The notes below the pieces were generated by a model that saw nothing but the letters and a program-made list of their open reading frames with translations, was not told the DNA's origin and made no database searches. 64,000 nucleotides of DNA from Onishia taeanensis (GTDB taxonomy: Bacteria; Pseudomonadota; Gammaproteobacteria; Pseudomonadales; Halomonadaceae), in the NCBI RefSeq assembly GCF_003268885.1, contig NZ_QLSX01000001.1, positions 62,001-126,000 on the forward strand, in the 5' to 3' direction. Below, in pieces: positions 30,746 to 48,059 of this stretch. Both the position numbers and the translations under genes were made by a program. How positions within the stretch are numbered: position 1 is the stretch's first letter; every line of letters starts with the position of its first letter.

Positions 30746-30826
30746 CTCGCCGTGGCGGGCTTCGGTCACCTCTTCATGGTGCAGGGCGGCATATTAGTGT
30801 TTGCCTAAACCAGCTCTCATGCCGAA

Positions 30827-30846
30827 TACTGTATAGATAAACAGTC
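30827..30846 (+). promoter_or_regulatory. LexA box upstream of umuDC copy 1
   Basis: TACTGTATAGATAAACAGTC matches the SOS consensus TACTGTATATATATACAGTA at 17 of 20 positions and lies 23 bases before umuD. Confidence 0.9.
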
Positions 30847-30868
30847 TTCGACAAGAGGCCAGCCAGCC

Positions 30869-31309
30869 ATGCGAGCTTCCGAGATCTTCCAGGCACACCC
30901 GACGCCACCCGCCCAAGGGCTGCCGCACCCGCAAACCGCCATTCGTGCGGGCATTTCAGGGTTCCCCTCACCGGCCGAGGACTACGTGGGCCGCACGCTG
31001 GACCTCAACCAGCGACTGGTGAAGCGCCCCTCGGCGACCTTCTTCATGACCGTGACCGGCGACAGCATGGAAGGCTTCGGCATCCAGGATGGCGATACCC
31101 TGGTGGTCGATCGCTCGGTAGATGCCAAGCCAGGCCATATCCTGGTGGCGCTGGTGGATGGCGAGGTGATCGTCAAACGCTACGAGCTGCTCGGCAAGCG
31201 GCCCTACCTGTGCTCCGGCAACGATCGCTATGCGCCGATCCCAGTTTCTGACCTGGACTGCCAGGTGTGGGGCGTGGTGCGCTCGGTGATCCACGAGTTC
31301 CCCGTATGA
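30869..31309 (+). CDS. umuD: UmuD-type SOS mutagenesis protein (copy 1)
   Basis: 146 residues. RecA-assisted self-cleaving subunit of DNA polymerase V. The catalytic Ser (TGDSMEG) and Lys (DGEVIVKRYE) are intact. The cleavage region reads SGFPSPAEDY, so the scissile bond would be Ser-Gly instead of the usual Cys/Ala-Gly. LexA box upstream; its stop overlaps the umuC start (ATGA). Its partner umuC is interrupted. Confidence 0.92.
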   Translation: MRASEIFQAHPTPPAQGLPHPQTAIRAGISGFPSPAEDYVGRTLDLNQRLVKRPSATFFMTVTGDSMEGFGIQDGDTLVVDRSVDAKPGHILVALVDGEVIVKRYELLGKRPYLCSGNDRYAPIPVSDLDCQVWGVVRSVIHEFPV

Positions 31310-31404
31310 CACAACCGATGATCGGCCTAGTGGACTGCAACAACTTCTATGTGAGCTGCGAGCGGGTCTTTCAGCCGCGCCTGGAAGGCGTACCCGTGGG
31401 AATA
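31306..31404 (+). pseudogene. umuC: umuC copy 1, 5' fragment (interrupted by a 15.4-kb element)
   Basis: Encodes about 33 residues of the polymerase V catalytic subunit (MTQPMIGLVDCNNFYVSC ... LEGVPVG) and then runs into the element, with the frame closing at 31506. The matching 3' fragment starts at 46840 with codons for NNDGCVIARSSEL, so the break falls in the conserved VGVLSNNDG stretch; about 10 bases of the original gene are not recognisable between the fragments. Confidence 0.93.
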
Positions 31405-31406
31405 AT

Positions 31407-31535
31407 GTCCATTAATGGACCTGTATTTTTCAAGAAATGGACTTTATTTTTTACATTATTTTCAATAACTTATATTTTCATAACCAGCCCATTTTCTCTT
31501 CCTTGAAATGGACCACAATGACTCGCTAGTCCATT
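31407..31535. repeat. Cluster of GTCCATT/AATGGAC motifs at the element's left end
   Basis: The 7-mer occurs at 31407-31413, 31414-31420 (together a perfect 14-bp palindrome), 31436-31442, 31507-31513 and 31529-31535, and once near the other end at 46787-46793, inside the start of a recombinase gene. Repeated short motifs in both orientations at element ends are typical binding sites for tyrosine recombinases; that role is inferred. Confidence 0.6.
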
Positions 31536-31609
31536 TTTTAGCTTGAGTATCGGGACGCCACTGAGGACAATGCCCGCTTTCGTCTCAAAGCTCCAAGTAG
31601 GCAGTGGAT

Positions 31610-31945
31610 CTACGCGATTATCGGGCTTATTGTGCACCTGCATACATTCTTGTGTTTGCTGCATATAAACTCACCTGGGTGATTATTCATCCCTCTTATA
31701 TTAAATTCCTTACCGTTATTATTTTTGCATTCTCCACACACTTTTTCATCATTTGATGACACCCAAGTATAATATGTTACACCGGAATTTATCATTCTTT
31801 CTCTTTTTTCTAAGGATGCTTTTATTCTAATAACATCTTCTTCCCCTGCTCCGTTTTCTTTTGCCTGATTAATCACATACTCTTTGTTGATAGAGCTTGA
31901 TTCCAAAGGAGTCTTTTTAAATATCTTTGTAATTAAACTAAACAT
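31610..31945 (-). CDS. Small protein resembling the C-terminal part of phage Mu F / SPP1 gp7-like head proteins
   Basis: 111 residues from an ATG with AAGGA 9 bases upstream. The C-terminal half (YYTWVSSNDEKVCGECK, then NNHPGEF and CRC) follows the pattern seen in MuF-type minor head proteins (W-x-D-V ... G ... HPG ... CRC). The Cys/His set CxxC, CxxH, CRC suggests a zinc site. It lacks the large N-terminal part of such phage proteins and no other phage genes are near, so it is a stand-alone domain of unknown function in the element cargo. Confidence 0.55.
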   Translation of the reverse strand: MFSLITKIFKKTPLESSSINKEYVINQAKENGAGEEDVIRIKASLEKRERMINSGVTYYTWVSSNDEKVCGECKNNNGKEFNIRGMNNHPGEFICSKHKNVCRCTISPIIA

Positions 31946-31965
31946 GATCAGCAATCCTTTAATCT

Positions 31966-32640
31966 CTAATATTCAATCAAAGCAAATTCATTATTACTTA
32001 AATTTATTTTGATCTCTGGGTTTTTATACATTAAGTCTTGCAGACCTTCAGCACATACTATTTCATAAGGCTTGGTTTCTAATGTTTCACATTGCCCGAA
32101 AGCAAATCTATATTCTCTCTGGTAAGAATAATTTATGTGCTTGCAAAAATTACCCCACTTCTTCTTTTCATTTGTATACATAACTTCTCCGACCCGCATC
32201 TCTTTTTCACTTACTCTTTTCAATCGAGAAACTAGCTTGTGCATATCATCAATAGTTATGTACACATAATATCTCCCAAAAAAATATTTCATTTTTTCGA
32301 TATCTTTTTTTAGGAGCAATAGTTCATCCTCACTTTCAGGAGCCTTAAGAGACATCCAGCAGCTAAGCCATGAGTCTTTCTGGGGTAGGTTGTATGTTGT
32401 TAATGAATTAATATTTTCCGTATTAAATTCAATTCCATTTACAGCAAAGTGAGGTGAGCTATCTTTCCGATTTCGCCTATAAGAATAGTAACAACTTTCG
32501 AATTTGTCTGAAACTCCTTCACTGCCACTTATTCTATATAACTCTGGTGGCTGGCAGTGGAAAAGCCCCGATATCATCTTGTCTAAAAAATCTTCATTTC
32601 TAAAGAATTTTATTACCCCTAAGAATTGCCCTGGCGCCAT
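31966..32640 (-). CDS. Hypothetical protein, possibly DUF2971-like
   Basis: 224 residues. The second ATG (32640) is chosen because AAGGA lies 6 bases upstream of it, whereas it touches the first. The opening VIKFFRNEDFLDKMISGLFH and the later YSYQREYRFAFG resemble the layout of DUF2971-like proteins, which are often found in mobile elements; similarity is only by eye. AT-rich. It ends 20 bases before the MuF-like gene, so the two probably share a transcript. Confidence 0.5.
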   Translation of the reverse strand: MAPGQFLGVIKFFRNEDFLDKMISGLFHCQPPELYRISGSEGVSDKFESCYYSYRRNRKDSSPHFAVNGIEFNTENINSLTTYNLPQKDSWLSCWMSLKAPESEDELLLLKKDIEKMKYFFGRYYVYITIDDMHKLVSRLKRVSEKEMRVGEVMYTNEKKKWGNFCKHINYSYQREYRFAFGQCETLETKPYEIVCAEGLQDLMYKNPEIKINLSNNEFALIEY

Positions 32641-32668
32641 TTTCATTCCTTATTTTATTAAGCTTGAC

Positions 32669-33328
32669 CTAATATCTAGGTGCGCAAAGATCGCTATTAT
32701 TTAACACCTCATCTCCAATTGTCATTAATAGTTTTGAATGGCTTCCCCCGGAACCCCCGTTAGTTTCTATTATTATAACCGAAGGTTCCTTGCCTTCAGA
32801 AGAAATCAAATAAACATCGTTTTCTCTAAAGGTTTCTGAACTACATATGACTTCAGTTTCTAAGTTTTCATTTTCTCTAAGTGAGTCTATTATATCAAAG
32901 GAGCACATCTCAAAGAGGCTACCAAAACACTTGCTGACCCCTGGTCCTCCAGGTGCTAAAAAAGCATAATTTGCGCCAAATTTAGGTACCCCAGTGGAGA
33001 TATAGGATATGCTCCACCCTAGCTCTCGTTTATTTCGTTTTAGTACTGTACTTTTTTCGCCAAGAATATTTATTCTTAAAAAACCATGCCTTACAGTAGT
33101 CTCTCCGTCACTGTCGTATCCATCTGTTGTCCAGGCGATGTCGCTATTGGACATATGCGACCAGGGTATAGTGGTTGCTCCGTCCTCTTGCATTAGATCA
33201 TAAATAATATCACTGATTTCATATGATCCTTTACCCTCTAAGAGACCAGGTTCAACTTCTGCGAATGTTAAGCTGCTAACAAGCATCAAGAAAACTGATG
33301 AAGACATAACTTTTATTAGATTGGCCAT
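32669..33328 (-). CDS. Hypothetical secreted protein
   Basis: 219 residues from an ATG with GAGGG just upstream. A signal peptide (VMSSSVFLMLVSSLTFAE) is followed by a soluble domain with four Cys (SKCFGSLFEMCSF, EVICSS, SDLCAP) and an acidic character. No family recognised. It is the first of three minus-strand cargo genes (gaps of 28 and 20 bases), suggesting a small operon of two cytoplasmic and one exported protein. Confidence 0.6.
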   Translation of the reverse strand: MANLIKVMSSSVFLMLVSSLTFAEVEPGLLEGKGSYEISDIIYDLMQEDGATTIPWSHMSNSDIAWTTDGYDSDGETTVRHGFLRINILGEKSTVLKRNKRELGWSISYISTGVPKFGANYAFLAPGGPGVSKCFGSLFEMCSFDIIDSLRENENLETEVICSSETFRENDVYLISSEGKEPSVIIIETNGGSGGSHSKLLMTIGDEVLNNSDLCAPRY

Positions 33329-33959
33329 TTTTCCCTCAGTATAAAAACGTCTATGCTTTGTGTAATGATAACTTTTATTTATATAGGGTGTCGATAAATG
33401 AACTCCGTTAATAACCAGGTCGTTTTCCTTACGCGTTGTGCCTTGCCCCCTGGGCACCCTGCTGTGGGCTGATTTTGAGCACAGAATGCGCATATTCCTT
33501 CTATATAAGGAAAGGGCCGTTTCTCGTTCCCTTTATGGAGACTGAGATGACAAACCTACGCGATACATCTCATGAACGGCTACTGGGGAGCGTCGTCAAG
33601 CATGAGGCTCCGCTGGAGTCGGCTGCAGTGCCAATACCAATTAGAACAGTCCTCATTTCTACCGATCAAAAATGTCCGTTCTGTGCAGTTCAATCATTCA
33701 CGGCATCGGTGTTGAGCGTCTCGCTGACATCTGCGGCAGTGGCTTGCTCTGTAACTACTATAAGGTGCGGTGATGCCTCAAACTAGGCGATGTCAATCAG
33801 CCGCCGTCAGTGCACGGCACCCGCAAGCCTAACGCTATGTGGTACTAGCGAGTATGTCCCCTGAACCGCACAGTCAAAGAGACAGCTCCTGCTGTCAACA
33901 GCAATCTAGCCATTGATTGGGCAACTTTTTAAGCTTGCAGCATGCGTCTGTAGCTTAGA
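33329..33959. other. Cargo spacer, no gene supported
   Basis: 630 bases between the cargo operon and the second umuDC. A plus-strand frame near 33547-33786 (MTNLRDTSHERLLG) has no recognisable features and only a weak start; it may be decayed sequence. The composition changes near 33400 from AT-rich to mixed, suggesting a junction of two sources. Confidence 0.5.
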
Positions 33960-33979
33960 TACTGTATATATATACAACA
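33960..33979 (+). promoter_or_regulatory. LexA box upstream of umuDC copy 2
   Basis: TACTGTATATATATACAACA matches the SOS consensus at 18 of 20 positions and lies 14 bases before the umuD start, closer than in copy 1. Confidence 0.9.
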
Positions 33980-33993
33980 CAGGAGCCCATGGC

Positions 33994-34428
33994 ATGTTAT
34001 TGACCCCAGACATTACCGCCGCCGCTGGCAGCAAGACCCAGCCTCTGCTGGGCTGCTGCGTAAGAGCGGGCTTCCCCAGTCCCGCCGATGATCACCTCGA
34101 TACCGACATCAACCTGCACTCTTATGTGGTCAAGCGACCAGCGGCGACCTTCTTCGTACGCGCCGAGGGTGACTCAATGCACGGCGACGGGATCTACCAC
34201 GGTGACTTACTGGTGGTCGACCGCAGCCTAGAGGCGTGCCCAGGCCGTGTGCTAATCATCGCTCTAGATGGCGAACTGACCGTTAAGCGCCTGGAGCGAG
34301 TGGGCCAGCAGTACTATCTGGTCGCAGCCAACCCGAGCTACCGGCCGATTCCGCTGGCTGGCCGCGAGACTCATGTCTGGGGTGTGGTCACTCACGTCAT
34401 TCACGCGTTGCCAGGCGCACCAACTTGA
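33994..34428 (+). CDS. umuD: UmuD-type SOS mutagenesis protein (element-borne copy 2)
   Basis: 144 residues from an ATG 8 bases after AGGAG; another ATG 5 bases earlier is out of frame. The cleavage site RAGFPSPADD (Ala-Gly), catalytic Ser in GDSMHGD and Lys in GELTVKRLE are intact. It differs clearly from copy 1, so it is not a recent duplicate. Its stop overlaps the umuC start. Confidence 0.92.
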   Translation: MLLTPDITAAAGSKTQPLLGCCVRAGFPSPADDHLDTDINLHSYVVKRPAATFFVRAEGDSMHGDGIYHGDLLVVDRSLEACPGRVLIIALDGELTVKRLERVGQQYYLVAANPSYRPIPLAGRETHVWGVVTHVIHALPGAPT

Positions 34429-35702
34429 TCGCCCTGGTAGACTGCAACAACTTCTACGTCAGTTGCGAACGAGTGTTCGACCCGCGGCTCGAAGGGCGCC
34501 AAGTTGGTGTTCTTTCCAACAACGACAGCTGTATCGTCGCCCGCAGCAGCGAGCTAAAAAGCCAAGGCGTCGAAATGGGTGCGGCCATGCACCTGCTTCC
34601 ACCACATGTCCGTCACCAGGCTGTGCTGCTGTCCAGCAACTACGCGCTATACGGCGACATGAGTCGGCGTGTAACGCAGATACTTGGCGAGTTTTCGCCG
34701 CATATCGAAGTCTACTCCATCGACGAGAGCTTCGTCGGTTTCCAGGGCTTCGATCCGTCTACGCTTGAAGAGCATAGTCATCAGTTGCGCCGAACAGTTC
34801 TCAAGTGGACCGGCATCCCGGTGTCGGTGGGCATCGCGCAGACCCGTGTTCTCGCCAAGGTTGCCAACCGAGCAGCCAAGATGAATCCAGCCTATGAGGG
34901 CGTTTGCATGTTGGACGCTGACAACGGACATACCACGCGGTCGCTGCTTCAAAATTTGCCCGTGACAGAGCTATGGGGCGTAGCCAGACGCACCGGCGAG
35001 CGCTTGGCAGTGATGGGCATCGAGACTGCCTGGCAGTTGCGTGAGGCTGATCCCAAGCGGATTCGTCGAGCTTTCTCAGTAGTATTAGAGCGAATCGTCT
35101 GGGAACTGCGAGGCCAGCCCGCCATTACGCTCGATGACATGGCGGCGCCGAAGCGGCAGATCATGGTCTCACGCTCATTCGGGCGTCTGACTAGCGATCC
35201 CACCGATCTGCGCGAAGCCGTTCGGCAGCACGCCGCCAGAGCCGGGGAAAAGCTGCGTCGCCAGGGCAGCGTGGCCAAAGCGGTGATGGTGTTCGTACGT
35301 ACCAACCCCTTCCAGCCAAGCCAGCCACAGTATCGCAACAGCGCCGTGGTGCCCTTGGCGCAGCCCTGCAACGACACCCGCGATATTGCCCAGGCCGCAG
35401 CACGCGGGCTTGATATCGTATTCCTGGAAGGGTACCGCTACCAAAAAGTTGGCGTGATGCTTCTCGATATCTCGGACGAGGCTAACCGCCAGCTATCGTT
35501 GGGGGAGACCACACAGAGTGAGGGCGAGCGTAAACGACGTCAGAATTTGATGGCCACAGTCGACATACTTAACCGTGAGCTGGGGAGAGACAAGGTTAGA
35601 CTAGGCTTACCTAGACAAGAAAATTCCTGGAGACTAAAGTGTGAAAAGAGATCGCCGAGGTACACGACGCGATGGGAGGAGCTGGTAGTAGTAAAATCGT
35701 GA
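34425..35702 (+). CDS. umuC: UmuC-type DNA polymerase V catalytic subunit (element-borne, intact)
   Basis: 425 residues from a TTG overlapping the umuD stop. Y-family polymerase for SOS translesion synthesis. The metal-binding LVDCNNFYVSCE and YSIDESF motifs, the fingers VLSNNDSCIVARSSELK and the little-finger SRSFGR are all present. It is intact across the site where copy 1 is broken (VGVLSNND). It is a full-length alternative for the polymerase subunit that the element's insertion destroyed. Confidence 0.95.
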   Translation: MIALVDCNNFYVSCERVFDPRLEGRQVGVLSNNDSCIVARSSELKSQGVEMGAAMHLLPPHVRHQAVLLSSNYALYGDMSRRVTQILGEFSPHIEVYSIDESFVGFQGFDPSTLEEHSHQLRRTVLKWTGIPVSVGIAQTRVLAKVANRAAKMNPAYEGVCMLDADNGHTTRSLLQNLPVTELWGVARRTGERLAVMGIETAWQLREADPKRIRRAFSVVLERIVWELRGQPAITLDDMAAPKRQIMVSRSFGRLTSDPTDLREAVRQHAARAGEKLRRQGSVAKAVMVFVRTNPFQPSQPQYRNSAVVPLAQPCNDTRDIAQAAARGLDIVFLEGYRYQKVGVMLLDISDEANRQLSLGETTQSEGERKRRQNLMATVDILNRELGRDKVRLGLPRQENSWRLKCEKRSPRYTTRWEELVVVKS

Positions 35703-35885
35703 TGCCCAATATATGTCTAGTATATCAAATATGCTTTGCATGCAAGAAGACTAGGGGTCGGGGGTGTCAGTCAAACGAAACACAAGCTGCACTTACATAG
35801 GATCTATAGGCCTAATAGTTCTTGGCATTTTGTGCTGGTTGTGATCACTCAGCAAAATAAGCGCTCTTTATAATGCGCTTTATAC

Positions 35886-35893
35886 ATAATTTC
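35886..35893. repeat. 8-bp target duplication of the ISL3 element (left copy)
   Basis: ATAATTTC precedes the left inverted repeat and recurs exactly at 41008-41015 after the right one. Confidence 0.92.
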
Positions 35894-35942
35894 GGGTATC
35901 CGGATTAACTGGTTGAAGGGGCCCTCAAGCCCTTCCAAACCC

Positions 35943-37244
35943 TTAATCCTCCCAGAAGGTTGATAGATCGACGCCGAAATTCTTCTCTGGCTCGGGGAGC
36001 CCCATGCTGTAGGTCATAGTGGCCTTGCCTAGGAACGGGGATTCCTTGGTCTGCGGCGACTTCTTCTTGTGCTTGGTGGTGTAGAGCATCCGGGCCCGCA
36101 TCACCTCGAACGAATAACCCCGGCCATCGCGGTTCTTATCCTTGGCCAGCCGGTTGATCGACTCCGTGAAGGCGTTGGTGATCGGGATGTCAGTCTCGAA
36201 GTAGGTCAGTATCTCCTCACGCCAGCCGCTGACGGCGCTGACGAGATCTTTCCAGACCTCCTTCTGCCCCTGCGGGATATCGTCAATCCAGCGAGCCAGC
36301 GCCTTCTCGACATCACGACGAGTGGTGCAGTCCCAGATGTGGTAGAACCGCTCCTTGTGTTCGTAGGCCGCAAGGAGCCGAGGGAAGGCCCCTGTCCATG
36401 TCTCCATGATGAGCCGCTCGCGATCTGAAACGTCGTGAGCACGCTTCAGCAGGATCTTCCGGTCACCCTTGAGAGTTCGGCGCTGGTTGGCTGTCAGCTC
36501 CTTCCTGAGGCCCTTGCGGACCTTATCCAGCGCCTCGTTGGCCATGCGAACGACGTGGAACTTATCGACAACGATGCGTGCCTCGGGCAACACCGCTTGG
36601 ACAGCTCGTCGGTAGGGCTTCCACATATCCATGCTGACGATTTCCACCTTGTGGCGTTCGGTCATGTTCATGAGGCGCCTTGTCACCGCGTCCTGTTGGC
36701 GGCCAGGCAGCAAATCCAGCAAGGTCCGCTCTTCTAGGTTGGTCAGGATGCAACGATAGCGGCGGTTCAAGTACAGCTCATCGATTCCTAGGCAGCGCGG
36801 CGTCTCAAAGCGATGCCGGGCTGCGAGTAACTCGGCGCGTTTCCGGAAGATGTTGCGGATAGTCTTCTCGTCGAGCCCCGTTGTGTCGGCGACGTAGGCG
36901 TAAGGGTGGTTGAAGGCCTCCTTCTCAACGTGGCTGTAAAGCCTCCGTGTCATGCGGTGGTCATCGACCATTTCAGGGGGCCCAGGCCGGAATGTCCTCC
37001 CGCACGCACGGCATGTATAGCGGCGGCGGACCACCCAAAGGGTGACCCGCTTTCCGTGGAGAGGAAGATCGCGGTACGCGACGTCGCGCTTGCCAAACCT
37101 GACAAATTCACCCTCTACGCCGCACTCCTCACAGGCTATAGGGTGAGGAGCTTCAATCTTGAAGTGGAGATCGTGCTCCTCTACCTTCGTTCCTAGGATG
37201 TGGTATTCCGGAAGATGGAGGATATTGTCTGGCAGACCGGTCAC
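35943..37244 (-). CDS. ISL3 family transposase
   Basis: 433 residues. N-terminal zinc-ribbon-like region (CEECGVEGEF, CRACGRTFRP), then an HTH segment (DTTGLDEKTIRNIF) and a DDE core with ID in LGIDELYLN, MDMWKPYR, DKFHVVR and the C-terminal Glu in NAFTESINRLAK. It reads toward the left inverted repeat. It looks intact. Confidence 0.94.
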   Translation of the reverse strand: MTGLPDNILHLPEYHILGTKVEEHDLHFKIEAPHPIACEECGVEGEFVRFGKRDVAYRDLPLHGKRVTLWVVRRRYTCRACGRTFRPGPPEMVDDHRMTRRLYSHVEKEAFNHPYAYVADTTGLDEKTIRNIFRKRAELLAARHRFETPRCLGIDELYLNRRYRCILTNLEERTLLDLLPGRQQDAVTRRLMNMTERHKVEIVSMDMWKPYRRAVQAVLPEARIVVDKFHVVRMANEALDKVRKGLRKELTANQRRTLKGDRKILLKRAHDVSDRERLIMETWTGAFPRLLAAYEHKERFYHIWDCTTRRDVEKALARWIDDIPQGQKEVWKDLVSAVSGWREEILTYFETDIPITNAFTESINRLAKDKNRDGRGYSFEVMRARMLYTTKHKKKSPQTKESPFLGKATMTYSMGLPEPEKNFGVDLSTFWED

Positions 37245-37295
37245 ATAGTCTCCTCTTTTGTCCAGCTTGTCGAAGAAGGAAAGAGCGTGACCAGC

Positions 37296-38483
37296 CTATT
37301 CTGCAGATTCGGGAACTGTAGCCGGAGAAGCTAGCAGCACGATAGCGAGCGTCCCCATTGCTGTTGCCGTGGCCGCGATCAAAAAGATCTTTGAGAGACC
37401 GGCCAACGTAAGGACAGAGGCCCCCAATATTGCGCCAAGTCCGATCGCGCCGTTGAAAATCGCCACGTAGATTGCAGAGGCCGGCAGCGCGTCAGCGCCC
37501 GCTTCCTTGAGGATCCAAGTCTGGAACCCCACCAGAACAGCGGCGATTGCACCACCCCAAAGGATCAGCATTAGCGTCGTGCCCGGCAGCCCGAGCACAT
37601 CTGCCAACGTGGACAGCAGCCACAACGCCACCGAGGCCAGGCAGAGCGCGACCAGTAGAACAGATTTGAGCCTGCGGTCGATCAGGCTGCCGGTCACGAC
37701 GTTGGCTGCCAGCCCAGCTCCACCAAACGCAAAGAGCAGCGGGGCGATCGCTGATGGCGTTATGCCGCTTTGCGCACCAAGGTAGGGCTCAATATAGGTG
37801 AAAGCCATGAAATGAGCGGTAATCGCAAGCACCGTTGCAGCAAAGATGCGCAGGAACCGCGGGTTCGACAGAACGCGGCCCATTGCGGCGACACCGACAC
37901 CTTCGCTCCCTGGCAGTTTCGGCAAGGTGATAAAGCACACCGCCGCGACGGCGAAGGACAGTGCGGCGACGCAGGCAAAGGCACCACGCCAGCCCTCGAC
38001 GGTACCGATCAGGTTGGCCAGCGGTACACCCAGCACGCTGGCAGCCGAGACGCCCCCGAATATGATCGAAGTGGCCAGGCCAACGCGGTGGGGCGGCACG
38101 AGCTGTGCGCCAACAGTACCGATCATTGCCCAGAAGGCGCCATGAGAAAGCGCACCGATCACCCGCGCGCCCATCAGCGCGGGAAAGGTCTCTGCCATGG
38201 CGGCAACGCCGCTGGATAGAGCCAGGATCAACATCAGGGCAACCAGAAGCGGTCGACGCGGCATGCGGGACAGCACGACAGCCGAAAACAGCGCTGCAGC
38301 CACAGCGATCCAGGCATAGAGAGTCACAATCAGCCCGGCCTGTGAGGTGGGCGTCCCGAGATCGCTCCCGATGCCAGAGAGCAACCCGATCGGCGCAAGC
38401 TCGGTGGTAACGATGGTAAAACTGCCGACGCCAAGCGCCGTTACGGCAACCCAGTCGCGCCAGGTCGTAGTTTGAGCAGACAT
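37296..38483 (-). CDS. MFS efflux transporter (DHA1, AraJ/SotB-like)
   Basis: 395 residues with about 12 hydrophobic helices; ATG 7 bases after AAAGGG. The N-terminal TTELAPIGLLSGIGSDLG and the motif between helices 2 and 3 (VLSRMPRRPLLVALM) resemble the arabinose/isopropylthiogalactoside and drug exporters of the DHA1 group. Located in the plasma membrane. Last of three minus-strand passengers of the ISL3 element; substrate unknown. Confidence 0.82.
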   Translation of the reverse strand: MSAQTTTWRDWVAVTALGVGSFTIVTTELAPIGLLSGIGSDLGTPTSQAGLIVTLYAWIAVAAALFSAVVLSRMPRRPLLVALMLILALSSGVAAMAETFPALMGARVIGALSHGAFWAMIGTVGAQLVPPHRVGLATSIIFGGVSAASVLGVPLANLIGTVEGWRGAFACVAALSFAVAAVCFITLPKLPGSEGVGVAAMGRVLSNPRFLRIFAATVLAITAHFMAFTYIEPYLGAQSGITPSAIAPLLFAFGGAGLAANVVTGSLIDRRLKSVLLVALCLASVALWLLSTLADVLGLPGTTLMLILWGGAIAAVLVGFQTWILKEAGADALPASAIYVAIFNGAIGLGAILGASVLTLAGLSKIFLIAATATAMGTLAIVLLASPATVPESAE

Positions 38484-38512
38484 GTCAGAACCCTTTCTCC
38501 TTGCCCGCCGGA

Positions 38513-38893
38513 TCAGCGGGGCGTGAAGGCGGATTTGGCCGCCGTAATGGCATTCATCGCTGCGGGAATGCCCGCGTAGACCGCTACCTGCAGGACAACC
38601 TCGACGATCTCCTCGCGGGTGACTCCGGTGTTCAGTGCCGCGCGCATGTGAAACTCGAGCTGGCCCGGCGCCGTGCCCATTGCCGCCAGCATGGCGATGG
38701 TCAGCATCTCGCGGGTCTTCAGTGGCATCCCATCGCGTGCGACCACGTCGGTGAACGAGAAACCCAGCAGTATCTCGGTCGCTTCGGGGTGAAAATCATC
38801 GAGATTTTTCGCCACACGTCCAGGCGCACCGGGCTCGAGCCGTTCAAGCAGCGCCAATGCCAGCGCGCGGCGATCGGAGGCTGTGGTACTCAT
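38513..38893 (-). CDS. Carboxymuconolactone decarboxylase family protein
   Basis: 126 residues from an ATG overlapping the aldo/keto reductase stop (ATGA). The core [16 protein letters not shown] and [24 protein letters not shown] (across residues about 58-98) is typical of the PcaC/AhpD fold. The CxxC of peroxidase-type AhpD is absent, so it is closer to PcaC-like proteins, which often act with reductases on small organic compounds. Coupled to the reductase and to the exporter 29 bases downstream. Confidence 0.85.
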
Positions 38894-39873: not shown

Positions 39874-39919
39874 TTGTGCCTCCTTGAATACTCGGACTGC
39901 AGCGTGACAGAATCCGTAA

Positions 39920-40864
39920 ATGGAAAAAATTAACGATTCAGTCAAACAGGTTTCCGGTTTTGAAAAACAGATGCCGCGAGGTTGGATCTGGGACGACACC
40001 CGCACCTTTCTGGCCGTGGCCCGCCACGGCACGCTGAGTGGCGCGGCGTTGGAGCTCAACCTGGGTATCGCGACGCTCTCGCGGCGAATCGAACGGCTCG
40101 AGGCCGCACTGGAGCTACCGCTCTTCGTACGCCAGCAATCGGGCTACCAACTGACTGAGGAGGGCGCCGACCTGGTCGAGAAGGCCGAAGCGCTGGAAGC
40201 TGCTGCGGTGGCTTTCTCCTCGGGCGCCTCCGTTCAAGCGCAGATGACCGGCACAGTTCGCCTGGCCACGGCCGAGAATCTGGCTACCGGGCTTATACTG
40301 CCGGCGCTTCCGGAATTTCGCGCGCAATACCCCGAGCTGTCAGTTGAAATCGTGACTGATATCTCGACCGCTAACCTACATCGCCGAGATGCCGATCTTG
40401 CGGTACGGATGGTCAAGCCCGAACGGGGTAATGTCACGCTGCGCCGTCTCGGCACCTTGGGATACGGGCTTTACAGCAGCCCTGGCTACGCGGCACAGCG
40501 CGAGACCAATCCCGATCTGGGTGGCTATGACATGGATGCCTTCATCACCTGGAGCGAGGTGCAATCGCACCTACCCGCCGCGCAATGGATCGAGCGAATC
40601 CTACGCGGGCGCCAGCCGGCGCTGGCCACCACCTCGCTTGCAGCACAGGTGGCGGCAGCCAAGGCAGGGCTCGGTCTTGCGGTGCTACCGCACTTTGTCG
40701 CCCTGGATGCTGGGCTGGTATGCGTCACCTCGGACATCGGCATCGATCAGCCAATCTACATCGTAATCCAATCCGACCTGGCGCGATCGCGCCGCACGCG
40801 TGCAGTGGCTGACTTTCTTGTCGATCTGGTGAGCCGCAACCGCACTCGCCTAAGTGGTTGTTGA
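39920..40864 (+). CDS. LysR-family transcriptional regulator
   Basis: 314 residues. N-terminal winged helix ([29 protein letters not shown]) and a substrate-binding domain ([30 protein letters not shown]). It has a slightly long N-terminus before the HTH. Only 46 bases separate it from the divergent aldo/keto reductase gene, the usual LysR arrangement, so it probably controls that operon in response to a small molecule. Confidence 0.9.
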
Positions 40865-40928
40865 AACACAGGCTATGCTCAAATTTTTCGTCGAAAAGGG
40901 ATTTCAATAACCCCCCTCTGCCTTGTGA

Positions 40929-40945
40929 TCAACCAACTAATCCGC
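40929..40945. repeat. Degenerate internal copy of the ISL3 inverted repeat
   Basis: ATCAACCAACTAATCCGCT resembles the right end ATCAACCACTTAATCCGGA (about 14 of 17 positions) and lies 55 bases inside it, in the same orientation. It may be an older end left by a previous passenger-capture event. Confidence 0.45.
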
Positions 40946-41007
40946 TGAGGGTACTGTTTGTCTCATACTGTGATCATTAGAAAATCAACCACTTAATCCG
41001 GATACCC

Positions 41008-41015
41008 ATAATTTC
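41008..41015. repeat. 8-bp target duplication of the ISL3 element (right copy)
   Basis: ATAATTTC, identical to 35886-35893. It falls 14 bases before the stop of the small coiled-coil gene, so the ISL3 element landed just downstream of the recombinase operon without breaking it. Confidence 0.92.
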
Positions 41016-41028
41016 TTAACGGATCTTG

Positions 41029-41403
41029 CTAGCGAATCTTTTCCACCTTTCCCTTCAAGAGCAAAGCTCTCTCTTCTTTTAACTCATGATTTTCATGAAG
41101 CAGAGATATCTCCCTTTGAAGAGCCTCTTCCCAGAGGCTTTTATACTTTTTGGCCAACATCTTCGCCTCTCTTAACTCCTGGGCGCTTGACGTATCAGGC
41201 ACTTTGCTTTTCCTCTTTGCTTGATTGATTTCATCAATAAGCGCTGAGTAAATAACCCTAGATTTTTTGATAGTGCCCTTTTTTCTACCCGCTTCAAGGG
41301 CTACTGAATCATTCGTGATTTTTGATCCTTTCGCAACACGGATGGGCTTATTCCTTTTAAGGCGATCAAGAGCAGCAAAGTATTCTGACAAAACTTCATC
41401 CAT
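41029..41403 (-). CDS. Small coiled-coil protein, TnpC-like
   Basis: 124 residues. Basic N-terminal half (KKGTIKKSRVIYSALIDEIN) and a C-terminal coiled coil (KSLWEEALQREISLLHENHE). Size and position after two or three recombinase genes match TnpC of Tn554, an accessory factor for transposition; sequence similarity was judged only by layout. It overlaps the upstream recombinase gene by 8 bases, so it belongs to the same operon. Confidence 0.6.
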   Translation of the reverse strand: MDEVLSEYFAALDRLKRNKPIRVAKGSKITNDSVALEAGRKKGTIKKSRVIYSALIDEINQAKRKSKVPDTSSAQELREAKMLAKKYKSLWEEALQREISLLHENHELKEERALLLKGKVEKIR

Positions 41404-43462
41404 TTTCTGTCTCCCTGGATTCGACCTTTGAGTACATAGACTTAAGAATTTTCAACTCAGAAACTTCGGTTCTATATTCAACTGAGTCTTTATTAAGCTT
41501 TTCCAAAAATCTTTCTTGAGCACCTATAACTCTCCTGAGTTTAGACCCTTTGAGAATTGCCTTATCACAGCCAATGCATGCTGTAAGCGACCTAAGAGCC
41601 TTTCTATCGCAAGAATTCACAGCGATACAACCGCCCAATACGGTTTCTTGGTAGGCGATTTCTCCATTCTTAAACCTGCGCTCGATTACTTTCCTCTCTT
41701 CGGCCAGGATGTGACCATCTGCTCTAGCCGTAACCAAAGCCCCAGCAGCACCAAATAAGCGCTCATCTGAAAGAAGAACATCTGAAAGATAGGCAAGTGA
41801 CTGAGCAATAGGCTGAGCGATTTGGTACTCCTTTATAAAGTGATCTTTAACTTCACTGAGCATATTTTTGGCGAAAGAACTTCCTTGAGAATAATATAAA
41901 GACATATCATTCGTTATATGCTTTAACTGCCTCCTTAAGGATGGAAGTGACACCATTCCAGAACAGGAAGCATAAAGTGCCAAAGAGCGCCTAAACTGAT
42001 GACTCTTCAAAGGCCAGATACTACCAATGGAAAACTCACTTTCTTCTCTCCATGAGCGAAATGGGTCAATAGATTCAAGCTCAGATACGTCATTCTCAGT
42101 GATCTCGACATGAAGATAGGAAGCCCTTTTATATTCATTCGCGGACATCACCTGGGGTACCAAAACACCATCCTCTGGAAGAGGGATAAAATTAGTTCCT
42201 ACGCCTGTATAGCCAGGAGTGATAAACAAGGGAGTTTCCAACATTTTTTTAGGCACTACATTTATAAACCTATAAACAAAATTTGCTAATTTTTGGGCAA
42301 GTCTTACCGCTCTGGCACCAGCATCGTTGGTTACCCATTTAGCATTTTTTTCTCCAAACTTTGTCGTTAATCCTTCGATCAGATAGAATCTATTCCTATT
42401 TCTAACTTGCACGTCTAGGCAATCGAATGGCAGGAATCGTGCTTCTTCATGACGCATTCCCGTAAAAATTTGGATAATGGTTTTGCAAAGGTACTGAATT
42501 TTCATAATTCCTGTTGCTAAACCATGAGGGCTTCGGCTGAATTCTATTTTTTCAAATAGTTCATCGAGTTCTTTTTCCTCGATTAAATCGTCCAAAGTTT
42601 TGTAAAGTCGAGCATCGACATAGGGTTTTCCAGCCTCTATCGCATGCTTGAGAAAACGATCATGCTGAACGAACATCTTGCCTTCTTTGCGGGCCTTGGT
42701 TTTTTGAGCATTATGTGTCAAACCCGTATAAGAATTGTCTTCATGTTTTTCTATAAGCCATATAAGATCATCCATCTTTGGCTCAATAATATCGAGAAAG
42801 CTACAACTATTCCGAATAATTTTTGAATAGATGCGCGAGGGGATAGGTGGGGTCTGACGGAGGCTTTTTCTGTATTCATACAAACTCGACAAAAAATCTG
42901 TTAATTTATTAACAGTACATATTTCAAACCCTAAAGCTTGAGGTCCCACTTTGAACAATGACTGGATAAGATTCTTTAAAGCAAAAAGAGTATCGCCTGA
43001 GACGGGTTGCCCTCTATCACCTTCAGCCATCTTTCCTAGAAGCTCATAACTTGATAACAACTGCTCTACACTAACATTCTGCTTATAGGCGAACTCGCCA
43101 ATAAGTTTAAGAGCGGAGCTTATCTTGGTAATGCTTTTGGTAGAGTGTGCTTTTCTAGGGTGAAACCATATCAAGCAGAAGATAAGTCTCTTCAGAGAAT
43201 CCAGTATCTCTCTATTTCTGAAATCAATGTCTCCGGATATCCAATAACCAAAATACAAAGCTGTTGGCCTATATTTAATGTCGTAGGCTCTAAAATCCCA
43301 GCAGTCGTCTTCAAATACTGATACTGGATTACCGGACCTATCGCGAGAGATAACGAACGAGGGTGTGGGATAATCCCCCAACCGGCCAATGAAATCATCC
43401 GGAGGCGTAATACCAACAGGAACAGTAATTTTCGACTGCCAAACCGTATTATTAACACTCAA
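41396..43462 (-). CDS. Tyrosine recombinase of the element (third in trio)
   Basis: 688 residues from a TTG 3 bases past the previous stop, with GGAG about 10 bases upstream; no ATG precedes the conserved part. The catalytic residues are visible: Arg in FTGMRHEEARFLPF, HxxR in SHQFRRSL, and His plus Tyr in LKHITNDMSLYYSQG. It is much longer than ordinary phage integrases (about 400), with a long N-terminal region. AT-rich. Expected to cut and rejoin the element ends together with the first recombinase. Confidence 0.82.
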   Translation of the reverse strand: MSVNNTVWQSKITVPVGITPPDDFIGRLGDYPTPSFVISRDRSGNPVSVFEDDCWDFRAYDIKYRPTALYFGYWISGDIDFRNREILDSLKRLIFCLIWFHPRKAHSTKSITKISSALKLIGEFAYKQNVSVEQLLSSYELLGKMAEGDRGQPVSGDTLFALKNLIQSLFKVGPQALGFEICTVNKLTDFLSSLYEYRKSLRQTPPIPSRIYSKIIRNSCSFLDIIEPKMDDLIWLIEKHEDNSYTGLTHNAQKTKARKEGKMFVQHDRFLKHAIEAGKPYVDARLYKTLDDLIEEKELDELFEKIEFSRSPHGLATGIMKIQYLCKTIIQIFTGMRHEEARFLPFDCLDVQVRNRNRFYLIEGLTTKFGEKNAKWVTNDAGARAVRLAQKLANFVYRFINVVPKKMLETPLFITPGYTGVGTNFIPLPEDGVLVPQVMSANEYKRASYLHVEITENDVSELESIDPFRSWREESEFSIGSIWPLKSHQFRRSLALYASCSGMVSLPSLRRQLKHITNDMSLYYSQGSSFAKNMLSEVKDHFIKEYQIAQPIAQSLAYLSDVLLSDERLFGAAGALVTARADGHILAEERKVIERRFKNGEIAYQETVLGGCIAVNSCDRKALRSLTACIGCDKAILKGSKLRRVIGAQERFLEKLNKDSVEYRTEVSELKILKSMYSKVESRETENG

Positions 43463-43464
43463 AA

Positions 43465-45357
43465 TTAAACCGCTCCCAGTTCGATTAACATTATAGCTTT
43501 ATGCTCCCAGTACGGGTCTAATTCTTCTTTTTCAAAAACCTCATTTTCAATTCTTAAAACCATATCCTGGTGTTCTTTAGATCGCTCCTTGATATGGTTT
43601 ATCAGTTCCCATATTCGATGGATAACAGAGCCAAACATTCGATCAAAGTCATCTATTGTACCGCTTAATGGTTTCCCAAGCTCAACCATATATAAGCAGC
43701 TTAATAACTTCCTTATATCCTTATCGTCAGCATGAACAGCATAATTCTCGCAAAACAAGCACCCTTCAGGCTGAACACAATTTGGGACTATTGAAGTATC
43801 AGCATTCGGCTTTGTTGGATCGCCCTGGCTTTTGCAAGATCCAACAGCACTCTCTATATATCCTAAACTAATATCTTCATCACGATCAGAAATAATAATC
43901 GCGCTACTAGAAAGATAATTTAGGAAGGCTCCCATTTGGTCAACATGTGTTGTGTGAGACCCTGCAGCGTAGTTATTTTTTACCACATACTCTGTATTTT
44001 GAAGAAGAGTTGCCGTGGTGGAGATATCAGAGTTAGAGATTAGCCAATCGGATTTTGCAGCTCGCCACTCACTAGGCATGACAAGGCTTGCTGGGACACC
44101 TAGCTTTTCGAATGCTCTGGTTACGGGAAACATAGTTTCTTGCGCTTTAAGGCCCGTAAGTATCAGTGCATCAGACTCTACTACTTCAGCAAGATACTTT
44201 CTCATTTTTATGTATTTTTTGAACTTCTTGACAAACTTATTTTGGATCTCAAAGCTTACCTTTCTATTGCCAGCTCGAAACTTTACTGCTTTAAATCCGT
44301 ATCGCTCTTTCTTTAGCTCATAGTCTTCGCTCCATTTAAGGTTAAAAACCTGAGCACTATTCATCCCAGTATTAGCCAAAAACAGGGTAGCAAAAGATAA
44401 CGTCGCCAAACGAGCCAGCTGAATTCTTGAATGATGAAAATATTTCTTATTTGTTTTTGTAAGTGCCGATAGTGCTTTATGGTAATTATTCTTTACGATT
44501 CCGCTGGCGTTTCCGTAAGCTCGTTCATATTCCTCAGGAGTCCTGAGGCGGCCCTCACGACGATTAATGAATCTAGAATTCCTGTAATCGGCCACTGATC
44601 CATACTTATCAAGTTCTTTATAGAAGAACGAGTACGAGGGGAAAACCCACTGATCAGGCTCAGGAAGACCTATACACTTGGGGAAACTAATGTGGAAAGG
44701 ATAGTCTTCTTTATTCATTATAAAATCTGAAATTCTCTCAAACAGAGCGTCACAGACTGAAAGTGAGATTGACTGTCTATCTTCCGATGGAGGTTCGCGA
44801 GACTCTGAGTCATTTCTTGTGTAAAGCTCATTGACTCCTGAGTTAATATCACCATAGTCCATGGTATATGATAGCAAGTCTCTTGCGGCTGCTTGATAAG
44901 GAACTGCCGTGCCTGTCTTTAACTTATATGTATTTACCTGCTCATGCAAATATCTTACGAATCCTACATAGGCTTTTTTAGCATTTTCTTTGCTATGATG
45001 AAATTCATCATGCCCGCTTTCATCACACCAAGTTATGAATTTACAGCAAGACCTAAACAAACCGCTTAGTGATATTCCTTTTCTAGAATCATACATTACC
45101 AAATTATCGAAATAAGAAATAACTTCATGGACATAAGAGATGCGGTCTTCCATTAAGCTATCAATAACCACAAAGCGTTTTTGCGTTGTCAAGTACCTCC
45201 AAAAGTAACACATCCCCCCTACCCAAATCTTCTGGTTATCCTCGGTAACCAGTATGGCTTTGCTTGGGTCTATTATGCTTGATCCTCTTAATGGAAGCTT
45301 ATATTCTTTCTCTATCTCCTTAAAATTAGTAAATTTCACTGATATCACCCACAGCAT
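43465..45357 (-). CDS. Degenerate tyrosine-recombinase-like protein (second in trio, TnpB-size)
   Basis: 630 residues, the same length as TnpB of Tn554. The first catalytic Arg is replaced: LANTGMNSAQVFNLKW has Asn where GMR is expected. The HxxR position reads SEWR and the LGH motif reads LQN, while a Tyr in VVKNNYAAGS could be the nucleophile. It contains Cys clusters near the C-terminus (PNCVQPEGCLFC). It overlaps the first recombinase gene by 32 bases. Probably structural or with altered chemistry, inferred from the missing residues. Confidence 0.75.
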   Translation of the reverse strand: MLWVISVKFTNFKEIEKEYKLPLRGSSIIDPSKAILVTEDNQKIWVGGMCYFWRYLTTQKRFVVIDSLMEDRISYVHEVISYFDNLVMYDSRKGISLSGLFRSCCKFITWCDESGHDEFHHSKENAKKAYVGFVRYLHEQVNTYKLKTGTAVPYQAAARDLLSYTMDYGDINSGVNELYTRNDSESREPPSEDRQSISLSVCDALFERISDFIMNKEDYPFHISFPKCIGLPEPDQWVFPSYSFFYKELDKYGSVADYRNSRFINRREGRLRTPEEYERAYGNASGIVKNNYHKALSALTKTNKKYFHHSRIQLARLATLSFATLFLANTGMNSAQVFNLKWSEDYELKKERYGFKAVKFRAGNRKVSFEIQNKFVKKFKKYIKMRKYLAEVVESDALILTGLKAQETMFPVTRAFEKLGVPASLVMPSEWRAAKSDWLISNSDISTTATLLQNTEYVVKNNYAAGSHTTHVDQMGAFLNYLSSSAIIISDRDEDISLGYIESAVGSCKSQGDPTKPNADTSIVPNCVQPEGCLFCENYAVHADDKDIRKLLSCLYMVELGKPLSGTIDDFDRMFGSVIHRIWELINHIKERSKEHQDMVLRIENEVFEKEELDPYWEHKAIMLIELGAV

Positions 45358-46798
45358 TCATCAACTTCTCAAGGTGGGTTTCATAACCTTTCTGGGTATC
45401 CCTGACCATTTTGATATTATATTCATGATTCAAGTACAGGTCGGTCGTCTCTAATTTTTCATGACCCATAGCTGATCTAACAAAGTCTCTAGCTTGGTGT
45501 AGAGTAATCACTCCTAACTGGACTTCTCGAAGCTTCATCTCTGTGAGGTTCATTCCAAACGTGGCTCTCAAGTCATGAAACTTGTATCTATAATTGCTAT
45601 CATTAAGTCTAAGTCGCATCAGTGGCAAAACATGCTGGGAGATAAACTGCCTTACTAACGCGCCATCCCTAGCACGCCTTTTCGTATTACTTGGGTCGAA
45701 ATTTGAAAGATCAGATTTTGAATCGTAATAAGGACTTCCTCGGTTTGTTAGGAATACATTTACTTTTTCCTTGTCGCCTTTATACTTTTCCCTTCTGCTT
45801 GCTGCCCTTTCACTACTTATATACACTCTTAATTTATTAAAAAGCCAGACTGGGAATCTCAACACCATCCGCTTTCCATTTTTTGTATCGACCATAGTAG
45901 ATGGACCAACTTTTATTCGAACCTCGTTACCGCTACTCAACCTGCTCTCAGTGAAGTGCCTATCCCTGAGAGTAAGGACTGTTTGTATTCGTGCACCGGT
46001 AAATAGGGAAATAAGGTGTATTAGCGTCATCTCTACATTCCCTAGCCTAGCAAGTATTCTTATTAGTTCTACCTGTTCATCAAGAGGTAACGGCCTTAAT
46101 TCTCCTGCGTCATTGATTGAGTCTGAGTATGGATCATCAAATTTAGGCGATTTTATCGCTATATCAGTAGCAGCAACTTTCTTAGATTTTGCAGACCCGT
46201 ACCGGTCGTTGATACTGATATAAGCATCATGCTCATCCCAAGGTGGGTTACTCAATGTAATCGCTGTTTCGCCTATAATCCAACGATAGAAGCCAAGGAT
46301 TGAACTTACTCTGCGTGAAGCTGTAGTTGATGAAAGGTCACCAGCTTGTACGGATAAAACTAGAGAATTCCTATACCTATAGGTTGGTCTTAGCAACTTC
46401 CTTTTAGGGAACTCAAATGGGTCTAGCCCCTCATTTTCAAGGAATTTTTTATAATAAGACAAGTCGGAGGCGATGGAATGAAAGGTTGATATAGAGCCTT
46501 TTAAACCATTTTCAAATCGAGCTAGAAGGTATAGGTTTGCTTCCTTCCAAGGCGCATTAACCCCATTCAGTACAACTGGAAAATAGTTATATGAATAATC
46601 GTCAATTTTTTTATATTTCCCGCTATGATCCCCAAAGGGGCGTGAATAGTAAGTTGTTGACACACCACCACGGCTAGCAGGAATAATGTTTTTAATGGCA
46701 TTCTGATCAGATTTCTGACACGTTTCCGTCAATATTAATGTTGGTAATATCAATACCTTAGATTTTTCCACTTTACCTTGCTCTCGGTCCATTTTCAT
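45326..46798 (-). CDS. Tyrosine recombinase of the element (first in trio)
   Basis: 490 residues. All catalytic motifs are intact: Arg in FTGARIQTVL, HxxR in FHDLRATFG, GH in MGHEKLETTD and the Tyr in LYLNHEYN. It is the first gene of the recombinase operon and starts 41 bases from the umuC junction; its first codons contain the AATGGAC motif found repeatedly at the other end of the element. No good ribosome-binding site is seen. Confidence 0.88.
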   Translation of the reverse strand: MKMDREQGKVEKSKVLILPTLILTETCQKSDQNAIKNIIPASRGGVSTTYYSRPFGDHSGKYKKIDDYSYNYFPVVLNGVNAPWKEANLYLLARFENGLKGSISTFHSIASDLSYYKKFLENEGLDPFEFPKRKLLRPTYRYRNSLVLSVQAGDLSSTTASRRVSSILGFYRWIIGETAITLSNPPWDEHDAYISINDRYGSAKSKKVAATDIAIKSPKFDDPYSDSINDAGELRPLPLDEQVELIRILARLGNVEMTLIHLISLFTGARIQTVLTLRDRHFTESRLSSGNEVRIKVGPSTMVDTKNGKRMVLRFPVWLFNKLRVYISSERAASRREKYKGDKEKVNVFLTNRGSPYYDSKSDLSNFDPSNTKRRARDGALVRQFISQHVLPLMRLRLNDSNYRYKFHDLRATFGMNLTEMKLREVQLGVITLHQARDFVRSAMGHEKLETTDLYLNHEYNIKMVRDTQKGYETHLEKLMNAVGDISEIY

Positions 46799-46839
46799 TA
46801 AATCTACAGTAATGCAGAATCTAGTGCAAACCTACAGGT

Positions 46840-48024
46840 AACAACGATGGCTGCGTGATCGCCCGCTCAAGCGAGCTAAAGGCGCTGGGCGTGGAGATGG
46901 GCACCCCGGCCTTCCATCTGCAGCAATGGGTCAGCCAGGGGCGCATCTGCCTGCTGTCGTCCAACTACGAGCTGTATGGTGATATGTCCGCCCGGGTGCG
47001 CGAGGTCCTCGAAGAATTCTCGGCCGGCGTGGAGCCCTACTCCATCGACGAGATGTTCGTGCGCTTCGACGGCTTCGATGACGCCACCACTCTCGCCCTG
47101 GCCCGCACCCTGTACCGCAACGTGCGCCAGTTCACCGGCATTCCCGTCTGCGTGGGCGTGGCACCCAGCCGAACCCTGGCCAAACTCGCCAACCGTGCGG
47201 CCAAGAAGCGGCCCGAGTACGGTGGCGTGTGCGTGCTGGCTGGAGATGACGAAGATACGCGCCATCTACTCAAGCAAACCGAGCTGGGCGACGTGTGGGG
47301 CGTGGGCCGGCGACTGGTCGAGCGGCTGGCCATTCAAGGCATCGAGACCGCCTGGGACCTGCGCTGCGCCGACCCCAAGACCGTCCGGCGGCGCTTCTCG
47401 GTGACGCTCGAGCGCACCGCCCGCGAGCTGCAGGGCACCCCCTGCATCGAGATGAACGATAGTGACGAGCCCCGCCAGCGCATCATGACCTCGCGCTCGT
47501 TCGGGCGCCTGACCGGCGAACTGAGCGAGCTGCAGGCAGCCATTCGCCAGCACGCCCAGCGCGGTGCCGAGAAGCTGCGCGCCCAACAGAGTCACGCCCG
47601 CGCCGTGCTGGTGTTCTTGAAGACCAACCGCCACCGGCAGGACCTGGCCCAGTATTCCCCCAGCATTGTCGCCGAGTTGCCCGAGCCCAGCGACGACAGC
47701 CGGCCGATTCTCGCCGCCGCTCAGCAGGCGCTGGAGGCGATCTACCGGCCCGGCTATCGGTTCATGAAAGCCGGCGTGATGCTGCTCGACCTGGTGGACG
47801 CCAACCGCGAACAGCTCTCGCTGCTCGATACCCCCGGCCGCGCCGCCGATCGCGAGCGTAGCGAACGCCTGATGAAAACCCTGGACGAGCTGAACCAGAA
47901 GATGGGCCGCGGCACCGTGCGCCTGGGCGTGCCCCGCCAGAACGCCGCCTGGCACCTGCGCTGTGCCCATCGCACGCCAAGGTGGACGACCCAGTGGGGA
48001 GAGCTGCCCAGCGCCAAGGCCTGA
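46840..48024 (+). pseudogene. umuC: umuC copy 1, 3' fragment
   Basis: About 394 codons, from AACAACGATGGC (NNDG) to the natural stop. It retains SSNYELYGDMSARV, YSIDEMF (note Met where most have Ser), TSRSFGRLTG and the C-terminal domain without internal stops, so the interruption is recent enough that no decay has set in. Without its first 37 codons, including the metal-binding DCNNFY motif, it cannot be active. Confidence 0.92.
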
Positions 48025-48059
48025 GCGCGTCGCAGCCAGGGCTCCAGGTTCTTGGTAGC

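Follow-up and report, generated by a model that had tools for sequence, protein, structure and literature searches.

Resident umuDC operon and the element inserted in it

The window analyzed here is a stretch of 64,000 nucleotides from Onishia taeanensis (assembly GCF_003268885.1, contig NZ_QLSX01000001.1, positions 62,001 to 126,000), which contains an umuDC operon with its umuC gene interrupted by a mobile element. The element carries four recombination genes, named ORF1 to ORF4 (ORF, open reading frame), and a second umuDC operon of its own, umuDC2. The coordinates of all features, numbered within the window, are summarized in Table 1.

Table 1. Features of the interrupted umuDC locus and of the inserted element
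Feature	Position	Strand	Basis
LexA-like box before resident umuD	30827..30846	+	17/20 match to consensus
Resident umuD, intact	30869..31309	+	Gene call and family search
Resident umuC, 5′ piece, 35 codons, last residues VGIMS	31306..31410	+	Congeners and frame join
Inserted element, 15,429 bp with one 6-bp core	31411..46839	.	Empty site, restored frame, edges in Halomonas sp. 25-S5
Far-end core ATTAAT, interpreted as carried in with the element (25-S5 has AGTAAT)	31411..31416	+	Edge comparison
Terminal motif of the distal end, GGACCTGT; repeats the motif of the ORF1 end imperfectly and inverted	31417..31424	+	By eye
114-aa ORF, Phage_Mu_F-like domain	31610..31954	-	Pfam
226-aa ORF, no convincing family	31966..32646	-	Family searches
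274-aa ORF, matches one PHROG of unknown function	32669..33493	-	PHROG search
LexA-like box before element umuD	33960..33979	+	18/20 match to consensus
Element-borne umuD	33994..34428	+	Pfam/NCBIfam search
Element-borne umuC (umuC2); target codons read SNND-S, DUF4113 end retained	34425..35702	+	Pfam/NCBIfam search, motif reading
ISL3-type insertion with passengers, 5,114 bp, imperfect ends	35894..41007	.	Domains; edges by eye
ORF4, 124 aa, small accessory protein, ginD/srap position	41029..41403	-	Profile match
ORF3, 688 aa, large recombinase, R337, H488, R491, H515, Y523/524, intB position	41396..43462	-	Alignment and profile
ORF2, 630 aa, recombinase-fold relative with no detectable catalytic set, tfp position	43465..45357	-	Alignment and profile
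ORF1, 490 aa, tyrosine recombinase, R270, H408, R411, H446, Y455, intA/ginA position	45326..46798	-	Alignment and profile
ORF1-end core AACAAC, equal to the empty-site core	46840..46845	+	Edge comparison
Resident umuC, 3′ piece, NNDG (NNDGC...) to stop	46840..48024	+	Congeners and frame

When position 31410 was joined to 46840, a single open frame of 429 codons was obtained, with its sole stop at the end. Six congeners were searched, and an uninterrupted umuC was found at the same locus in four of them (loci L008, L009, L010 and L011); in L009, the window segments 30790-31411 and 46840-48026 adjoin (blastn). From these empty sites and the restored frame, the insert extends from 31411 to 46839, with no host bases lost. 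The sequence-only reading of this DNA had placed in umuC a 15.4-kb insert that split the gene at codons for VGVLSNNDG, with the left piece ending at 31404. The split and the size hold, with edges now set by the empty sites and the rejoined frame, but the left piece ends at 31410 and the codons read VGIMSNNDG. The comparison of related genomes with and without the insert that it proposed gave both states, empty in the four congeners and filled in Halomonas sp. 25-S5.

The two other congeners, genomes G001 and G005, had lost the intact gene in other ways. In G001 (L033, L041) the target is intact, while umuC is broken at the point corresponding to window 47179/47180, and a second umuDC (74%) is present. 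In G005 (L195) about 3.3 kb of other DNA replaces umuDC, with ORFs that by eye resemble an IS3-type transposase and restriction genes; since its umuDC locus has been replaced, G005 is useless as an empty site.

The umuC portion that is absent from the 3′ frame is the carrier of the first catalytic Asp and of the steric-gate Tyr. With the first 35 codons separated from this frame and both residues missing from it, the umuC fragments are very probably inactive and the resident DNA polymerase V (Pol V) very probably dead.

The element-borne umuDC operon

The second operon is complete (33994/34006-35702). Its UmuD scored above the NCBIfam UmuD cut-off, and its UmuC covered the full NCBIfam UmuC model with a score of 413.6, slightly under the cut-off of 431, while Pfam IMS, IMS_C and DUF4113 were all above their cut-offs. 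It thus has what is expected of a Y-family Pol V operon, i.e., an umuD protease gene and an umuC with these three domains. Concerning its control, LexA-like boxes were scored against a 20-base consensus; with up to 4 mismatches allowed, just two were found in the whole window, at 33960 and 30827, one before each umuD. The claim of a complete second umuDC with an 18/20 LexA box was in this way borne out.

The element umuC was 52% identical to the resident one over residues 31-423, so the operon is no recent duplicate; it is diverged cargo, as had been proposed, and it is carried in two hosts. Its closest relatives among 275 genomes of the family, the 25-S5 copy aside, were the umuC genes of G107 (85%) and G114 (83%). 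The dN/dS ratio against the G107 gene was 0.13, which indicates that umuC2 is not decaying and that the copy is otherwise under purifying selection.

A search for umuC across the host genome returned a single distant Y-family gene (27%) besides umuC2 and both pieces of the resident gene. The same search in 25-S5 returned umuC2, the resident pieces, two further fragments and one distant gene. In either genome, umuC2 is the sole intact umuC found.

Altered target codons in the element-borne umuC

The target stretch of umuC2 reads TCC-AACAAC-GAC-AGC, with Ser in place of Gly after NND, four bases from the core. This SNND-S was present in none of 37 other umuC genes read in frame, all of which have Gly. 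The 37 genes comprise 34 read with a motif expression plus L141, L143 and L131 (Serratia plasmid). The expression gave nothing for six of 44 loci: L141, L143 and L131 were read separately, L133 holds the same gene as L131, and L130 and L132 hold umuC pieces only; L013 and L033, which represent the same gene, were counted once.

A wider search with a nucleotide pattern, covering TCN for the serine before NND and AGY for the serine after it, was run on 390 genomes of the order. It gave SNND-S matches in five genomes, the match being in umuC just in the window. The four matches outside the window were checked as possible umuC and are not umuC; they are at chance level, as the reversed-pattern control gave 12 matches. 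The corresponding SNND-G pattern gave 112 matches in 88 of the 390 genomes, against 13 in its control, all taken as pattern counts.

In an alignment that took in 25 of 33 umuC sequences, umuC2 departed from its 24 relatives at four otherwise invariant columns (G35S, V94I, A401S and R405K), while the other aligned sequences departed at 0-3 such columns. G35S, which was judged the one non-conservative change among the four, falls on the target site. The sequence-only reading had argued that both umuC genes contain the target and that protection against self-insertion would be needed. The target in umuC2 is altered, which is a possible answer to that need. Both the position and the rarity of SNND-S suggest that it may protect umuC2 against self-insertion, as judged from one change in one lineage.

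A second insertion in Halomonas sp. 25-S5

The same element was found in Halomonas sp. 25-S5 (G109/G276; NZ_JARANV010000008.1), of the same family and another genus group. At the protein level, the two copies were 100% identical for ORF1-4, for umuD2 and for each of the three distal ORFs, and 99.8% identical for umuC2. At the DNA level, one mismatch was found in 5,044 aligned bp and none in 5,943 bp, besides one differing base in the far core; this comparison covers the element outside window positions 36457-40896, as the 25-S5 contigs break in the repeated ISL3-type element.

The resident umuC of 25-S5 is a different gene, its 3′ piece being 58% identical to the resident gene of the window and 68% to the cargo gene. 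It is nevertheless cut at the same codons, with both edges as in the window. The two copies are thus two separate insertions in two hosts. The proposal that a recombinase-trio element inserts site-specifically in umuC is in good agreement with this independent assembly, where the same codons were hit in a different resident gene.

Core sequences at the element edges

The empty site is TCC-AACAAC-GAyGGC, encoding SNNDG. The ORF1 end of both copies reads ACAGGT-AACAAC-GAyGGC and carries the target core, while the far end reads TCC-ATTAAT-GGACCTG in the window and TCC-AGTAAT-GGACCTG in 25-S5. The far-end core is read as brought in by the element. GInts are flanked by imperfect direct repeats of 10-17 nt; in the window, the two cores agree at 3 of 6 positions, and no longer repeat was seen by eye. 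With a 6-bp footprint placed in this way, the target core stands at the ORF1 end in both insertions and the other core at the far end.

Recombination operon, remaining genes and base composition

From the ORF1 end, the element contains ORF1-4, the ISL3-type insertion, umuDC2 with its box, three short ORFs and the far end. Only ORF1 among the four operon proteins received a Pfam integrase call, and a weak one. Profiles of ORF1-4, built from 62-80 sequences, were run against a set of 19 proteins, to which the E-values refer. Position by position, they matched the four-gene set of pAQU1 (E 8e-29, 3e-27, 2e-42 and 4e-8), which was taken as the published SE from its layout beside blaGMA-1, without coordinates from the paper. 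The ORF1-3 profiles matched the first three proteins of the integron-like element (ILE) of pWTJH6 more weakly (E 6e-24, 9e-11 and 6e-17). By gene order and protein homology, the insert belongs to the SE/GInt class, as a mobile element with four recombination genes that inserts site-specifically by tyrosine recombinases. Toward its C-terminus, ORF2 has conserved cysteines (C508, C527, C533 and C536) in a Cys-rich stretch that might bind metal.

The ISL3-type insertion is flanked by an 8-bp duplication, ATAATTTC, at 35886-35893 and 41008-41015 (by eye). Its genes encode a transposase, an MFS protein, a carboxymuconolactone-decarboxylase-like protein (CMD), an aldo/keto reductase (AKR) and a LysR regulator. 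The last four were considered as original cargo of the element, and this was ruled out by their location between the ISL3-type ends with the duplication. Since they belong to a separate insertion, umuDC is the only recognized cargo unrelated to recombination. The first 1.35 kb of the ISL3-type insertion were 86% identical to ISL3 transposase regions of Halomonas and Paracoccus plasmids.

Concerning the three distal ORFs, the 114-aa product matches just part of the Mu F-type phage head proteins. PADLOC gave no match for these ORFs or for the four operon proteins, and no DNA similar to 31411-33690 was found in the plasmid collection.

Without the ISL3-type insertion the element measures about 10.3 kb. 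The GC content was 40% in the recombination genes, 38% at the far end, 57.6% in umuDC2 and 60% in the ISL3-type insertion, compared to 61-62% in the host. This mosaic composition suggests capture of umuDC2 by an element that was itself AT-rich.

Relatives of the recombination operon

The best 80 of 158 relatives of the operon (gin relatives) were examined for their insertion site. In 8 of the 80, the neighbor on the ORF1 side is cut off by a contig end less than 260 bases from ORF1, and for the 79 relatives other than the 25-S5 copy, the far ends are unmapped. The best relatives were 34-45% identical. The search for further trio elements at the same umuC codons, as had been proposed, yielded the 25-S5 copy and no other of these 80. 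It follows that the pairing of umuC target and umuDC cargo belongs to this element and not to the recombinase family; umuDC as a family trait was also considered, and the 80 loci did not support it.

Some relatives have umuC nearby. L107 holds an umuC 3′ piece starting at about residue 66, some 0.8-0.9 kb from the recombinase, L066 an umuC (NNDG; complete in G275) about 4.5 kb beyond the operon, and L112 a weak, distant match. No umuC was found beside the operon in four betaproteobacterial plasmid relatives, apart from one 15-residue match (E 0.004) in L047. Among viral contigs, 16 pattern matches for relatives were obtained, none of them confirmed.

A candidate for another element with a complete umuDC is on the Serratia plasmid pE46_2 (L131), where umuC pieces of residues 1-75 and 73-102 lie beside two sets of recombinase genes and an umuDC that is complete (SNNDG); no matching umuC 3′ piece was found on it. 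Truncated umuC genes with ends near residues 75 and 102 adjoin other recombinase sets in pE46_2 and pUM505 (L130), which suggests several different insertion sites within umuC.

Interpretation and alternatives

The conserved umuC stretch encoding SNNDG would be the target of an element of the SE/GInt class. ORF1 and ORF3, aided by ORF2 and ORF4, would carry out the strand exchange at the 6-bp core AACAAC and so divide umuC behind its 35th codon; such a mechanism is modeled on studied relatives, while the edges were read directly from the two copies. Resident Pol V would be lost by the insertion, and the element would supply its own LexA-boxed umuDC. As the element carries this operon, the cell would keep exactly one intact Pol V operon, dependent on retention of the element. 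The Ser at the target of the cargo umuC would keep this rescue copy safe from insertion by the element itself. The site, the edges, the anatomy, the two insertions, umuC2 as the sole intact umuC found and the altered target were observed as described; from them we infer the loss and rescue of function, the immunity and the fitness logic. The lower cost of insertion and the control of SOS mutagenesis by the element, both proposed in the sequence-only reading, are likewise hypothetical. Taken as a whole, the explanation of an umuC-targeting element with umuDC rescue and an altered target is considered rather probable.

Several observations weigh against this explanation. G005, of the same species, has other DNA in place of the resident umuDC locus, which suggests that the locus is dispensable, and in G001 the gene is broken elsewhere than at the site of the element. 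Insertion of an ILE in the rulB gene of pWW0 did not reduce UV tolerance (PMC4542609), so breaking umuC may cost little. The far cores ATTAAT and AGTAAT are not AAyAAy, do not encode Asn-Asn and differ from umuC targets, so the most recent donor sites may have lain outside umuC. G35S, one of four departures from invariant columns, might impair the polymerase.

These points fit in part a rival account, according to which an umuC-targeting trio element picked up a common umuDC passenger by coincidence and G35S arose by drift, with neither rescue nor immunity. At least 5,000 plasmid records match this operon, which is indeed a common one, only the 25-S5 copy was found at these codons among the best 80 of 158 gin relatives, and a single element lineage, seen twice, shows the combination; umuDC may therefore be chance cargo. 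On the other hand, umuC2 is otherwise under purifying selection by its low dN/dS, the one of its four departures that was judged non-conservative falls on the target site, umuDC is the sole recognized cargo once the ISL3-type insertion is set aside, and no other intact umuC was found in either host. Coincidence is judged rather unlikely, though it deserves to be taken seriously. It seems very improbable that the window simply holds another ordinary ILE in umuC, of a kind already explained. ILEs have three recombinases and a small gene, they occur in rulB within AACAACGAT (PMC4542609; pWTJH6), and ORF1-3 are detectably related to their proteins; however, this relation is distant, the orientation is opposite, the termini differ and a complete umuDC is not described in ILEs in the available text. 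A wrong joining of two umuDC loci by assembly or duplication could be suspected from the 25-S5 contigs, which break inside the repeated ISL3-type element. But both edges are common to two independent assemblies with different flanks, the frame is exactly restored and the two umuC genes are only 52% identical, so an artefact of this sort is given hardly any credit.

The element is thus real, precise and recently mobile, and has an unusual relation between cargo and target; among the relatives examined, the pairing is a feature of this element alone, and any benefit from it is hypothetical. The more far-reaching notion of an insert-and-rescue element, which would break a conserved host gene by site-specific insertion, supply the only working copy and have the target in that copy recoded against further hits, is put forward tentatively and seems doubtful at present. 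If true, the host would depend on the element for SOS mutagenesis, and nature would here offer a parallel to gene drives that carry a recoded rescue copy. Inducible mutagenesis in the host would hinge on what becomes of the mobile element, and the locus provides a testable case of how an inserting element may avoid or profit from its own damage by breaking, replacing and insertion-proofing a gene.

Comparison with known systems

The closest likeness is to the SE on pAQU1 (PMC10214605), which has four genes, intA-tfp-intB-srap, in the same order and with homology to ORF1-4. The second gene, tfp, is likewise devoid of the RHRY set that intA and intB have. In SEs, the target core is next to the intA end and the carried core is at the far end (PMC10214605), as the host core of 6 bp is at the ORF1 end here; the termini are imperfect inverted repeats in both cases, and the size is near the SE median of 15.7 kb (PMC10214605). 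Recombination of attL with attR is described for SEs as giving a strand-biased circle and leaving no empty site. The sequences are distant, however, and whereas no SE homologues were found in Betaproteobacteria according to the available text (PMC10214605), many Burkholderiaceae are among the listed gin relatives of the element, so its homologues extend beyond Gammaproteobacteria.

The GInts, with genes ginABCD, were compared by description (PMC5385486); they are characterized by a circular form and by four genes that are all essential. They share three recombinases and a small protein at one end, variable cargo, an AT-rich far end, precise insertion and a wide host range. They differ in which gene is deficient. 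In GInts it is the third one, since GinC reportedly misses either a single Arg (PMC5385486) or the whole catalytic set (PMC10214605); in the element, ORF3 has the residues and ORF2 is without the set. umuC is not among the GInt sites named in the available text, which comprise ssb and the genes of an ABC transporter and of a ribonucleotide reductase (PMC5385486). Tn554, also compared by description, is site-specific with a 6-bp footprint and a small accessory protein, but has no counterpart of ORF2 (PMC10214605). ICEs (integrative and conjugative elements) of the SXT/R391 type interrupted in rumB share an umuC homologue as the site; they are unrelated to ILEs beyond the site, and no replacement operon is mentioned for them in the available text (PMC4542609).

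Insertion of a recombinase trio into umuC/rulB is already published as ILEs (PMC4542609), which have three recombinases and a small gene; their point of entry in rulB is at 123 bp and is accompanied by a GAT repeat. Their target is the AACAACGAT stretch of an umuC homologue, the crossover lying a few bases off. The recombinase end of ILEs adjoins the 5′ half of rulB, whereas the ORF1 end adjoins the 3′ half of umuC; the ILE terminus is CTGAGGG, compared to ACAGGT and GGACCTG here, and the proteins are distant. A complete umuDC as cargo is not described in the available text; ILE-FH4 has a 160-aa rulB-like ORF (PMC4542609). On pWTJH6, an ILE-type insert lies in the same stretch in opposite orientation, leaving two umuC pieces, and no other umuC was found on that plasmid.

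In the literature searched, mostly open-access and largely at listing level, no umuC-disrupting element with a complete umuDC was found. The combination of a disrupted umuC with a complete umuDC appears to be new, as does SNND-S in the element copy. Together with the ILEs, there are now at least two distant lineages of recombinase trios that use one short stretch of umuC as their site, in opposite orientation.

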